From: Pseudomonadota bacterium
GTDB lineage: Bacteria > Pseudomonadota > Alphaproteobacteria > G022571365
Reading direction: 5' to 3'
Assembly: GCA_022571365.1 (NCBI GenBank)
Contig: JACZXZ010000015.1
Span: forward strand, 1-38,126
DNA length: 38,126 bases
Part shown: piece by piece, positions 17,103-21,357 of the stretch
How positions within the stretch are numbered: the first letter of the stretch is position 1
How the letters are laid out: each line of letters begins with the position of its first letter
The notes under the pieces: model-generated
Database searches by the model: none
Seen by the model: the letters and a program-made list of their open reading frames with translations, nothing else
What the model was told of the DNA's origin: nothing
Made by a program: the position numbers and the translations under genes

Positions 17103-17858
17103 GTGAACGTCCCATATCGGAAGCTCGAGATTCCGCCGTACTCGAAAAGTGACATCGCATTTCTTGCGCTCGGCACCATTCTAAACGCGGCGTTGACAAT
17201 ATGGGGGCTGGTGTGGGTGACGACCCACTGGCACGTGGTGAATCCGCCTTGGTACGCGTTGGTCGTCGCGCTTGCCCTCGGGCTATTCCTCGCTGATTTC
17301 CTTTCCGGTCTTCTGCATTGGGCCTTTGACACATGGTTTGATGAGAAGATGGCGGCTATCTCGCGCATGGTTGTGTTGGTGCGGGAGCACCATGTCTATC
17401 CTCATCATATTTTTCGTTACGACATGCACCATGAGGCCGGTTCCGGGTCGTGGACTTCGCTGTTTTTCACGGCGCCGGTTTACGGGCTCGTCACTGTTGG
17501 CGTATCTGAGGGCACGATAGTGGGTTTTTCGTCCGTCGTGGCGTGTATCGTTATCTCCCTTTGCATCGTCTTCATGCTTCAATTTCACAAGCTCGGGCAT
17601 CGCAGAAGCAAGTCGAAAATCATACGCATGTTGCAGGTCTCGCGTCTGCTCATGTCACCCCAGCACCATGGATGGCATCATTCGGCGAACCACGATGTGA
17701 AATACTGCCTTATCAACGGGTGGGCCGATCAAGTGCTCGATGCACTGGGGTTTTGGCGGTGGATGGAACGCGTGATTCAGCGCGCCACGGGCGCGGTCCC
17801 ACGGCGCAATGACCATGAATGGATGAGGCGTTACGGCAGGAGTGGTGGATTGCGCTGA
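17103..17858 (+). CDS. TMEM189/CarF/FAD4-type lipid desaturase
   Basis: A 251-residue integral membrane protein of the lipid desaturase family. The family includes plasmanylethanolamine desaturase (TMEM189, bacterial CarF) and plant FAD4, which puts a trans double bond in phosphatidylglycerol. The histidine-rich iron-binding pattern is present: LLHW (H72), REHHVYPHH (H96, H97, H101, H102), DMHH, FHKLGH (H162, H166), and SPQHHGWHHSANH (H188-H197). Hydrophobic segments lie near residues 18-40, 50-72, 118-135 and 138-160. The start is GTG 17103 after a GGAAGGCGGA site. I cannot tell an ether-lipid from an acyl substrate. It is the first plus-strand gene of the inserted block. Confidence 0.8.
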   Translation: MNVPYRKLEIPPYSKSDIAFLALGTILNAALTIWGLVWVTTHWHVVNPPWYALVVALALGLFLADFLSGLLHWAFDTWFDEKMAAISRMVVLVREHHVYPHHIFRYDMHHEAGSGSWTSLFFTAPVYGLVTVGVSEGTIVGFSSVVACIVISLCIVFMLQFHKLGHRRSKSKIIRMLQVSRLLMSPQHHGWHHSANHDVKYCLINGWADQVLDALGFWRWMERVIQRATGAVPRRNDHEWMRRYGRSGGLR

Positions 17859-18011: not shown

Positions 18012-18755
18012 ATGCGTGAGGACCTGACAGATCGATCCCCGACGGCGGGCGAGCCCTGGCCGGCCGGCGCGAATCCGTCGGCCAGGCCGGCCGCCGACTT
18101 GGCGCCGGCCGTCTTGCGCCGCGATTCGTTCAAGTATCTCCTGCTGCTGCGCTTCATCCTGGTCAACTTCATCGGCGGCGCGCTGCTGGCGGCCGCGGCG
18201 ATTCAGGGATGGGTCGGCATGGTCTTCAGCAACGACCCGACGCGACTGACGGTCGTCATCTGCGCCGTGTTCGTCTTCGGACTCGTGCTGTGCGGTTGGA
18301 AGATTTTTCGCACGAGCGAGGATCTCAACCGGGCCCAGGCCTTTGATCTGGCATCCGGGGCCGCGTCCGAAGCTGCGCGCTACGTCGCCTCGGTTCAGGG
18401 CCGCGAGGCGGACAGTCGCGCAATAACGTCCTCGTCCCTACGCCAGAAATACGCCACCCGCGTCGCCGTGGTGCGCCATATCGCGAACAGCCTCGTCCTT
18501 TTGGGGCTGATTGGCACGGTGATCGGCTTCATCATCGCGCTCTCGGGCGTGAAGCCCGATTCGATAAGCGAGGTCGAGAACGTCGCGCCAATGGTGTCCA
18601 CCCTGATCGAGGGCATGTCCATCGCCCTCTACACCACCCTGGTCGGCGCGGTGTCAAGCGTTTGGCTGATGGTCAATTACCGCCTGCTCGCGACCGGGAC
18701 GGTCACGCTCACCAACGCGATCATCGAGCTGGGCGAAGCCCATGCACGAGGCTGA
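18012..18755 (+). CDS. MotA/TolQ/ExbB-type proton channel protein
   Basis: A 247-residue membrane protein with four predicted helices (about 42-66, 80-98, 157-179 and 200-226). A cytoplasmic region of about 58 residues lies between helices two and three. The last two helices carry the family hallmark: LLGLIGTVIGFIIALSG (164-179), then EGMSIALYTTLVGAV (200-214), with the conserved Thr and Gly residues that line the proton path in ExbB, TolQ and MotA. The ATG follows a very strong GGAGGAGGGG site. It is 45 bp before the next gene. It is not next to tonB, tol-pal or flagellar genes, so its function is probably different. Confidence 0.8.
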   Translation: MREDLTDRSPTAGEPWPAGANPSARPAADLAPAVLRRDSFKYLLLLRFILVNFIGGALLAAAAIQGWVGMVFSNDPTRLTVVICAVFVFGLVLCGWKIFRTSEDLNRAQAFDLASGAASEAARYVASVQGREADSRAITSSSLRQKYATRVAVVRHIANSLVLLGLIGTVIGFIIALSGVKPDSISEVENVAPMVSTLIEGMSIALYTTLVGAVSSVWLMVNYRLLATGTVTLTNAIIELGEAHARG

Positions 18756-18800
18756 ATCCTTCGGCCAAGCCACGGATCAAAGGCAACGAGGAAAAGAGCA

Positions 18801-19322
18801 ATGGATCATGTGATCTATCTGTTCGCCCCGATGGCGTTTTTGGCGGCTGTGCTGGCTAGCATCTCCATCTGGTCGCGGCGTGCGCTGTGGATCAAGGTTG
18901 TGGCGCTGGCGACAACGATGTTGCTTATTCCCACTGCCTATGCGGGCATCCTCGATCTGCTCAGCAAGCCCAAGCCGGTTCACCTTGAATGGATCGTAGG
19001 CTCGGTCGAGGAGGCGATGGTGCTGAGCGCCGCGATATGGGAAGGTGAAGCAATTTATCTATGGCTGAAGATCGACGGGGTAGGGGAGCCGCGGTACTAC
19101 GTGCTGCCCTGGGATCTAGGGCTCGCCGAAGAGCTGCAGGAAGCACTGCGGGAAGCCGCGCATAACCGCAGCGGCGTGCTCATGCGGTTGCCCTTCGAGC
19201 CGAGTTGGGCGCGCGACGATCCCACTTTCTATGCGTTGCCACAGCCGGCCCTGCCACCGAAATTCGTCGACCCCAATGACCCGGGTCCGCTGCTATACCT
19301 TCACCCGGAAACTGAAAGTTAA
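18801..19322 (+). CDS. Unrecognised two-helix membrane protein
   Basis: I do not recognise this 173-residue protein. It starts with two hydrophobic segments (about residues 4-24 and 29-51) linked by a short basic turn (SRRALW). A soluble part of about 120 residues follows, containing VHLEWIVGSVEEAMVLSAAI, IYLWLKIDGVGEPRYYVLPW and a helical AEELQEALREAAH stretch. The C-terminus is proline-rich (LPQPALPPKFVDPNDPGP). It lies between the ExbB-like gene and the ExbD-like gene with gaps of 45 and 73 bp, so a shared complex is likely. The ATG follows a GAGGAAAAG site. Confidence 0.6.
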   Translation: MDHVIYLFAPMAFLAAVLASISIWSRRALWIKVVALATTMLLIPTAYAGILDLLSKPKPVHLEWIVGSVEEAMVLSAAIWEGEAIYLWLKIDGVGEPRYYVLPWDLGLAEELQEALREAAHNRSGVLMRLPFEPSWARDDPTFYALPQPALPPKFVDPNDPGPLLYLHPETES

Positions 19323-19395
19323 TGCTTCGAGTTGCTGGCATGCCCGGGTGAGGAAAATAACCCGGCGACCGCGATTCAACCACTGAGACCACCCC

Positions 19396-20040
19396 ATGCA
19401 CGATCCCGACTCTTTTGACGAGGACGCCAGCGGCACGGTCTTTCGGGACGTGATCCTGCTCGCGCTGCTGGGCTTCGTCGCCATCGTGGTGCTGCTGCTG
19501 CCTCACGTCAATCCCGACGCCGAGGACAAGGAGGCCGGGGTGTCGCCGGCCTCGGGCAATGTCGTCGTGGAGATTCACTGGCCCGACGGGTTGAATACGG
19601 ACGTCGATCTGTGGGTTCAGGCGCCGGGCGACGTGCCGGTGGGTTACTCGAACAAGGGGGGCCGAATCTTCAACCTGCTGCGCGACGATTTGGGTCACGC
19701 CGCCGATGTGACGAACGAAAACTATGAAATCTCGTACAGCCGCGGGATCCCCGAGGGCGAATACCTCGTCAATGTCCATCTCTACCGCAACGTGGCTCAA
19801 GTCTATCCCGTTCCCGTGACTGTGGTTACCAGCGTCCGGCCCGAGGGCGGGGAACTCAAGCAGCTGCTCTCGACCCAGGTCAGCCTGAACCGGGAAAACG
19901 AGGAGATCACGGTCTACCGCTTTAAGCTTGACCGCGAAGGCGCGCTGGTGCCCGGCAGCGTCCACAGCCTACAGCGGACGATCCGAAAGGGGTTACTACT
20001 AATTCAGCCGGCCCTTCCGCCCAAGGACGATGTCCCTTAA
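19396..20040 (+). CDS. One-helix periplasmic protein with ExbD/TolR-like membrane entry
   Basis: A 214-residue protein with an acidic cytoplasmic N-terminus and one helix (about 19-36). Just before the helix is VFRDVILLALLGF, with Asp18 in the position of the essential Asp in ExbD (PFIDVMLVLL) and TolR (PLLDVLLVLL). The rest should be periplasmic and does not look like ExbD, TolR or MotB. It has a beta-rich domain with VVVEIHWPDGLNTDVDLWVQ, GRIFNLLRDDLGHA and YLVNVHLYRN, reminiscent of DUF2135-like extracellular beta-sandwiches. The C-terminus ends with PALPPKDDVP. I infer that it is the stator partner of the ExbB-like protein at 18012. Confidence 0.6.
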   Translation: MHDPDSFDEDASGTVFRDVILLALLGFVAIVVLLLPHVNPDAEDKEAGVSPASGNVVVEIHWPDGLNTDVDLWVQAPGDVPVGYSNKGGRIFNLLRDDLGHAADVTNENYEISYSRGIPEGEYLVNVHLYRNVAQVYPVPVTVVTSVRPEGGELKQLLSTQVSLNRENEEITVYRFKLDREGALVPGSVHSLQRTIRKGLLLIQPALPPKDDVP

Positions 20041-20151: not shown

Positions 20152-21357
20152 GTGACCGCACAATCTTCTGCGTTGAATGAATGGGCGGGATTCATCGATC
20201 AAGTCATTGAGGCGAGCGGCGTCTCCTGTGAGATCGAGTTCCCTTCGGGCGAGACCAGGCGCTTCGGTACTGGAGAACCGCGATTTCGCCTGGTGTTCCA
20301 CTCCACCCGCGTGCTCAAAAGGAGCTTTGACGAGCTCTCGCTGGGACAGGCCTATGTCGATGGAGAATTTGATATCCACGGCGACATGATGAGCCTGCTT
20401 GATCTCCGGGCCCATCTGAAAGATAAAGTAATATTACCTATTCTCGCCAAGTTCTGGCTTCAATTCATGTTCCGTTCCCCCACCTGGATCAATCGAAAGT
20501 CTATCCCGGCCCATTATAATTTTGGTGACGACTTCTTCCTGTCCTTTATTGATAAAAAGTACCGTATTTACTCTCATTGCCTGTTTCATTCGGATAACGA
20601 GAGCCTCGAACAGGCGGTGGAGCACAAGCTCGAAACCATGTACGAGGAGCTGGAGCTCGAGCCGGGCATGCGACTTCTCGATATTGGGTGTGGCTGGGGG
20701 GGAGTCATAGAATATTGCGGCGGCCGCGGTGTCCACGTGACGGGGGTAACCCTTGCGGAGAATTCTTACAACTATTGCACCAACCTGATTCGCACGAATA
20801 GCTTCAACTCATGTGAAATCCATCTCGAGGACTTTCTGAACCACCGGCCCAAAGAGCCATACGATGCCATCGTTATCTATGGCGTTATTGAGCATATACC
20901 CTATTACCAACGCTTTTTCGAACGCGTTTGGAACTGCCTGCGGCCCGGTGGGCTCCTCTACCTGGATGCATCGGCTTCGATAGAAAAATATGATGTGAGC
21001 GATTTCGCACGACGCTACATCTGGCATGGCACACACGCGTTTATGTGCCTGCAGGATCTCATTCGAGAGCTCTTATTTCATGGTCTGGAGCTCGTTCGCG
21101 TAACTCAGGAAACCCGTGATTACGAGCTGACCATGAGTCATTGGGCGAAAAGATTCGAAGCCAACCAGGAAGAAATAATCGAACGTTGGGGCGAACAGGT
21201 GTATCGAGCCTTCCGGATGTATCTCTGGGGAGGCTGTCATGACATGCGCAGCCATAACCTCCAAGCCTACCACCTCGTCGCCCGGCGGCGGAATGATCCG
21301 GGACCGCGCCCGGGTCTTATGCGGCGGGTCAAGCACATGATCCAAGGATTGGCCTGA
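20152..21357 (+). CDS. Cyclopropane-fatty-acid-synthase-like methyltransferase
   Basis: A 401-residue SAM-dependent methyltransferase of the cyclopropane fatty acyl phospholipid synthase superfamily. Visible features are the N-terminal lipid-binding region (SLGQAYVDGEFDIHGD), HYNFGDDFF (121-129), SAM motif I LLDIGCGWGG (175-184), the IEH motif (Glu247) and DYELTMSHWAKRFE near 323. The HTIG segment that supplies an active-site His in canonical Cfa is replaced by LDASAS near 271. The product may therefore not be a cyclopropane ring; a methyl branch is possible. The GTG start at 20152 follows GGGGGAA. Stretches such as 20420-20600 are clearly more AT-rich than the flanking genes, a sign of transfer. 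Confidence 0.75.
   Translation: MTAQSSALNEWAGFIDQVIEASGVSCEIEFPSGETRRFGTGEPRFRLVFHSTRVLKRSFDELSLGQAYVDGEFDIHGDMMSLLDLRAHLKDKVILPILAKFWLQFMFRSPTWINRKSIPAHYNFGDDFFLSFIDKKYRIYSHCLFHSDNESLEQAVEHKLETMYEELELEPGMRLLDIGCGWGGVIEYCGGRGVHVTGVTLAENSYNYCTNLIRTNSFNSCEIHLEDFLNHRPKEPYDAIVIYGVIEHIPYYQRFFERVWNCLRPGGLLYLDASASIEKYDVSDFARRYIWHGTHAFMCLQDLIRELLFHGLELVRVTQETRDYELTMSHWAKRFEANQEEIIERWGEQVYRAFRMYLWGGCHDMRSHNLQAYHLVARRRNDPGPRPGLMRRVKHMIQGLA

Follow-up and report, generated by a model that had tools for sequence, protein, structure and literature searches.

A candidate ion-driven membrane motor encoded by three adjacent genes in alphaproteobacteria and in unrelated phages

Three adjacent genes in an alphaproteobacterial genome, here called the trio, are on the whole best explained as a membrane motor that is driven by ions and belongs to the MotAB/TolQR/ExbBD superfamily (probability about 0.7), a reading drawn from sequence comparison and founded on the channel family, an aspartate and two threonines. 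With somewhat less assurance, though still above even odds, we regard it as a distinct proton-driven three-subunit motor family that is widespread in alphaproteobacteria and present in several unrelated phage lineages, cultured ones included, with phages running an envelope motor of their own during infection. In this superfamily ion flow drives flagella, the Tol and Ton systems, gliding and one defence system.

The window, that is, the whole stretch of DNA analysed (38,126 nucleotides), corresponds to contig C38 in a genome of 2.3 Mb (93% complete), and the sampled relatives of this genome have only the class in common with it. All three open reading frames of the preliminary description were found in place, and the features of the trio are as follows.

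18012-18755, + strand: channel subunit gene, 247 aa, MotA/TolQ/ExbB-type, four hydrophobic segments
18516-18518, + strand: codon of channel subunit T169, matching ExbB T148 (hhalign)
18636-18638, + strand: codon of channel subunit T209, matching ExbB T181 (hhalign)
18801-19322, + strand: mid gene, 173 aa, two N-terminal helices and a small beta-beta-beta-alpha-beta domain
19227-19262, + strand: FYxxPQPxLPPK motif of mid, residues 143-154 (homologue conservation)
19396-20040, + strand: D3 gene, 214 aa, one transmembrane helix and an eight-stranded beta-sandwich periplasmic domain
19447-19449, + strand: codon for Asp18 of D3, presumed to carry protons (homologue conservation; hhalign to ExbD/TolR/MotB)
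19600-19728, + strand: D3 acidic cluster D69, D71, D97, D98, E111 and D104, which we infer to be a Ca2+ site
20005-20025, + strand: D3 C-terminal tail QPALPPK, a near copy of the mid end (local alignment)

The trio lies between a CarF-like lipid desaturase gene upstream and a cyclopropane fatty-acid synthase-like gene downstream. The former, at 17103-17858, encodes a homologue of the CarF-like plasmanylethanolamine desaturase (Lipid_desat, 6e-41, under the CarF equivalog cut-off). Farther out, the open reading frames look, from their translations, like proA, proB, obgE, nadD and ribosomal protein genes.

The channel subunit can be assigned by sequence to the MotA/TolQ/ExbB family, as first proposed: it matches Pfam MotA_ExbB (PF01618) at 2.2e-9 with 37.6 bits against a cut-off of 22.9, and a profile of its homologues matches the solved structures of MotA (8gqy, 3e-6) and PomA (8brd, 8e-4). 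An hhalign comparison with E. coli ExbB (2.6e-4) is in register and places T169 on T148 and T209 on T181. Among the aligned bacterial sequences T169 is kept in 117 of 117 and T209 in 118 of 118; in twelve viral channel subunits Asn stands in place of T169, which counts against the motor reading. Glu176 of ExbB, the last-helix glutamate of ExbB and TolQ proper, has no counterpart, its position being taken by Ile204 (hhalign); this sets the subunit apart from ExbB/TolQ proper and is a further point against the motor reading. Phages have shorter versions of the channel subunit, most of them 130-190 aa long.

D3 has the features of an axle subunit, with a single predicted helix (residues 10-38; AlphaFold2, mean pLDDT 88.7) and a conserved aspartate, Asp18, at the cytoplasmic end of that helix. 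The corresponding Asp of ExbD, TolR and MotB is essential. In hhalign comparisons without a forced register, Asp18, a real codon in the window, falls on TolR D23, MotB D32 and ExbD D25, all three in agreement, although none of these alignments is long or strong (E 0.016 for TolR, 0.032 for MotB and 0.008 for ExbD). The conservation check called for in the preliminary description gave Asp18 in 118 of 118 bacterial and 82 of 83 viral D3 sequences of the main sampled set, and in the single viral exception (L156) an Asp is found close by, displaced. A family found in a later search, outside that set, departs from the rule: in f159 (8 of 8 loci read, L227-L234, from genomes of 6-9 Mb) Val occupies the canonical place of Asp18. 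In its D3 the Asp comes one turn earlier, and the Asn four residues further on has given way to Lys (FDPLGVMLFKALQ); this is a naturally altered ion site. This displacement counts against the motor reading, and the f159 motor may be differently coupled or inactive. The label of an ExbD-like partner thus holds for the helix, which resembles those of ExbD, TolR and MotB, and fails for the head, which is unrelated; the Pfam ExbD model (PF02472) gave no match to D3 by hmmscan, its only hit in the genome search being part of a MotA_ExbB and ExbD pair on contig C3.

The head of D3 proved to be all-beta, as the beta-rich periplasmic module proposed earlier, and AlphaFold2 confidently models helix and eight-stranded sandwich in the single chain. 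Structure prediction was run on alignments without sequences from the plasmid and phage collections. The DVDLWVQ motif is there with D69 and D71 invariant, and D97, D98 and E111 are likewise invariant, a 98-sequence alignment being among the bases for this. Since these five acidic residues are invariant and the best PDB fold for D3 is a calcium-bound domain (2lge, E 4e-3), a Ca2+ site in the head is presumed. The head gave 5e-5 across 77 columns against E. coli YfaP (DUF2135) in hhalign, whereas a DUF2135 match at 0.01 or better was obtained for 6 of 94 D3 homologues and the D3 of the window scored 14.5 bits against the PF09906 cut-off of 22; going by sequence, the head would be distant kin of YfaP/DUF2135 and nothing closer. 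The best PDB sequence match of D3, to the C-terminal portion of a protease of subtilisin type (3afg), was non-significant (E 0.11), and a Foldseek search against viral structures returned generic beta-sandwiches only.

The mid protein, previously described as an unfamiliar two-helix protein with a proline-rich end, is confidently modeled, as a single chain, with two helices and a beta-beta-beta-alpha-beta domain (AlphaFold2, mean pLDDT 89.4), only about 120 residues lying past the helices. Most bacterial and some of the viral sequences keep its FYxxPQPxLPPK tail, and K154 and P97 are invariant or nearly so. No Pfam, NCBIfam or PDB sequence family matched mid, a PDB fold search gave nothing at E <= 0.001, and a comparison with TolR yielded no result; neither D3 nor mid was matched by Pfam, NCBIfam, PHROGs or PADLOC at 0.001 or better. 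The transducing role that TolA or TonB has elsewhere probably falls to mid as the third subunit.

In bacteria the three genes form a fixed unit. They were found together in 121 of 121 loci with full flanks (a few genomes being counted twice), and the order is MotA-D3-mid in 120 of these; the order of the window, MotA-mid-D3, is unique. The proposal of a three-gene unit therefore stands as regards the joint occurrence of the genes, while the gene in the middle is normally the third and the arrangement first seen is peculiar to the source genome. In the D3 tail, 17-18 of 20 bases are identical to the mid end (19239-19262), and QPALPPK occurs only in the D3 of the window among those scanned; this copy and the unique gene order could reflect a local rearrangement, a partial duplication of mid, or a misassembly.

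With a profile of ten D3 homologues, 43 genomes out of the 289 sampled from the class had a match at E <= 0.001, full-length in about 35 cases; a 399-genome sample of the phylum added 16 strong matches, of which three lie outside the class. Among named genomes a scan detected 476 D3 relatives, the best 80 of which are mainly from Rhodospirillales-like alphaproteobacteria (Azospirillum, Skermanella, Tistrella, Geminicoccus, Pelagibius) and include some gamma- and betaproteobacteria; a few relatives come from MAGs assigned to other phyla, where misbinning may be the cause. Two D3-matching places occur in each of seven Azospirillum megaplasmid records, NZ_CP012915 among them, and Azospirillum may carry two copies of the trio or of the D3 head. 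In a family of small genomes (f9, about 1.3 Mb) the trio is present in 29 of 32, and the three that lack it are 65-77% complete, a pattern that points to a core function; the trio is vertically retained in this streamlined family. Its retention even in 1.3-Mb genomes suggests that it probably serves a basic envelope task. In another family (f33) it is present in 3 of 3 genomes. As no partner gene recurs in most of 86 bacterial loci, the trio looks self-contained; the commonest recurrent neighbours, ABC-transporter-like open reading frames (28 of 86 loci), are at scattered places and look like background.

The trio is also carried by phages. In IMG/VR, 231 viral contigs with D3 relatives were found, the trio being unannotated, and among the loci drawn from the best 80 of these contigs and three cultured phages, 72 of the 77 with full flanks have the complete trio, in the order MotA-D3-mid. 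The co-occurrence survey suggested at the outset thus came out in favour of the unit on both sides. Terminase large subunit and portal genes, hallmarks of phages, lie beside some of these trios. By tblastn, D3 was detected in 27 of 50,697 phage records, all from Rhizobium or Sinorhizobium phages with genomes of 59 to 171 kb, and is annotated there as 'hypothetical protein' or with a bare number; PHROGs has no family for the trio and gave weak matches only, to families of unknown function. Cultured phages carry it as follows.

16-3 (temperate): p038, p040, p042
RHph_N34 (Pootjesviridae): gp145-147, mid assigned by position
P10VF (Pootjesviridae): 191-193, mid and channel gene assigned by position
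RHph_N3_13: 063-065
RHph_I1_18: 122-124, mid and channel gene assigned by position

Small open reading frames are interleaved in the trio of 16-3-like phages, namely p039 (L212, 19705-19995) and the membrane-protein-like p041 (20525-20710). A tree of D3 and the channel subunit has two deep groups with bacteria and phages in each; one viral contig that falls among bacteria (L132) may be a misassigned cellular contig. Unrelated phages carry the trio with the Asp kept.

The setting in 16-3-like contigs, where the trio lies downstream of lysozyme, Rz-like and trypsin-like protease genes, the protease being periplasmic, and in the same direction, raises the question whether the phage trio is part of the lysis machinery and helps to breach the envelope. 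We consider this doubtful, although it fares best among the alternatives: Rz/Rz1-like spanins seem to be already there (L159 c121, L144 c121; read from sequence), the trio of T4-like Rhizobium phages sits amid gyrase, sigma-factor and clamp genes, in RHph_N3_13 the lysozyme gene is 17 kb away from it, and a device that runs on protons would stall as soon as a holin had collapsed the proton gradient. A role as spanin replacement was considered and dropped, as Rz-like genes seemingly adjoin the trio. In about a dozen viral loci (L138-L160, L212) a Trypsin_2 gene whose product begins with a signal or lipoprotein sequence is located just upstream of the trio, p036 of 16-3 included.

In consisting of a channel, a partner with one helix and, third, a membrane protein whose tail is rich in proline, the trio resembles TolQRA and ExbBD-TonB, and it could be a variant Tol/Ton energiser for known outer-membrane proteins (TolB/Pal, TonB-dependent receptors). 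This is improbable, since the source genome already has the separate pair on C3, the only other one detected with Pfam MotA_ExbB and ExbD and provisionally taken for TolQ/TolR, and since mid, with its two helices and short remainder, matches no TolA/TonB family. As claimed earlier, there is no Tol, TonB or flagellar gene among the neighbouring open reading frames read in the window, nor do such genes, tolB, pal and receptor genes included, recur around the trio in other bacteria. Membership of Tol-Pal/Ton was rejected, as the third subunit matched no TolA/TonB family and no linked tolB, pal or receptor gene recurred nearby.

If the trio conducted or transported ions and had no mechanical output, this would be in line with the fact that only the channel part is recognised by existing families. 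We rate this reading lower still, because force transmission accounts better than conduction for a D3 head that is large and strictly conserved and for an obligate third protein whose tail is conserved. Least probable of all is a Zorya-type phage defence, in which an envelope sensor motor would respond to infection and the phage homologues could serve as counter-measures or weapons between phages: the ZorA match of the channel subunit is weak (PADLOC 9e-7) and, where curated cut-offs exist, far below them (19.9 against 100 bits), there is no ZorB match, no ZorC/D/E-like or nuclease gene recurs beside the trio, the window setting is housekeeping-like (read from translations), and the trio is near-universal in f9 and general in f33 whereas defence genes are patchy. 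Zorya membership was accordingly rejected on the ZorA/ZorB cut-offs and the effector genes.

We read the trio as representing a new subfamily among the ion-driven motors, probably with 5:2 stoichiometry, that includes the phage versions and most likely sits, in alphaproteobacteria, in the inner membrane. Five channel subunits would ring a D3 dimer (5:2 by analogy), and proton passage by way of Asp18 and two conserved threonines (T169 and T209) would turn or tilt this dimer, so that the beta-sandwich head, probably calcium-stabilised, would move in the periplasm. Mid, as transducer in the TolA/TonB place, would present its PQPxLPPK tail to a periplasmic target; a TolQRA-like transducer is our best guess. 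Judged by size, the place of action would be the inner membrane, the periplasm or the peptidoglycan, and would not extend out to the outer membrane. As to the driven process, we would guess a housekeeping envelope task in bacteria and, in phages, keeping or changing the envelope of the infected cell, or excluding other phages.

What is new here is the trio as core in one small-genome family, carried unrecognised by cultured phages and over 200 viral contigs, and the addition to the superfamily of a member whose periplasmic head is different and whose third subunit has no known fold. In the open-access literature no description was found of phage-encoded motors of this kind, of the periplasmic head or of the third subunit, and that on phage-encoded ExbB/TolQ, DUF2135/YfaP and phage 16-3 held nothing on the trio, an absence which is no proof of novelty. 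Two reviews of 5:2 motors and MotAB relatives (PMC12505986, PMC9389320) do not mention phage-encoded members in their passages on phage, and their passages with DUF2135 or Pfam terms hold nothing on such a head. Both roles are directly testable in tractable phages (16-3, P10VF, RHph_N34) and hosts (Azospirillum brasilense).

Compared with TolQ-TolR-TolA and ExbB-ExbD-TonB, the trio shares the MotA_ExbB channel with its conserved GxxGTxxG and T-rich helices, the one-helix partner with Asp at the helix start and a third membrane protein encoded adjacent, but the D3 sandwich is not the ExbD/TolR fold, ExbB Glu176 is lacking, and, in contrast to TolA/TonB, mid has two helices, a small domain without known fold and the PQPxLPPK tail, with no TolB, Pal or receptor. 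With the MotAB/PomAB stators it has in common the four hydrophobic channel segments, the profile match to MotA 8gqy and PomA 8brd and the MotB D32 alignment, whereas D3 is without the OmpA-like peptidoglycan-binding domain or plug, the cytoplasmic loop of the channel is short and there are no neighbouring flagellar genes. ZorA of Zorya ZorAB belongs to the same channel family, and the weak PADLOC match is a further likeness, but the trio is without the long ZorA tail, a ZorB match and ZorC/D/E, and as a core unit it is not patchy in f9 and f33. YfaP/DUF2135 shares the pattern WxxxxxDxDLxVxxP ... GxYxVxxxxY with the D3 head; its gene, however, is found in a yfaQ/yfaS/yfaT cluster and has no channel subunit as partner, and RDDxG and E170 are peculiar to D3.
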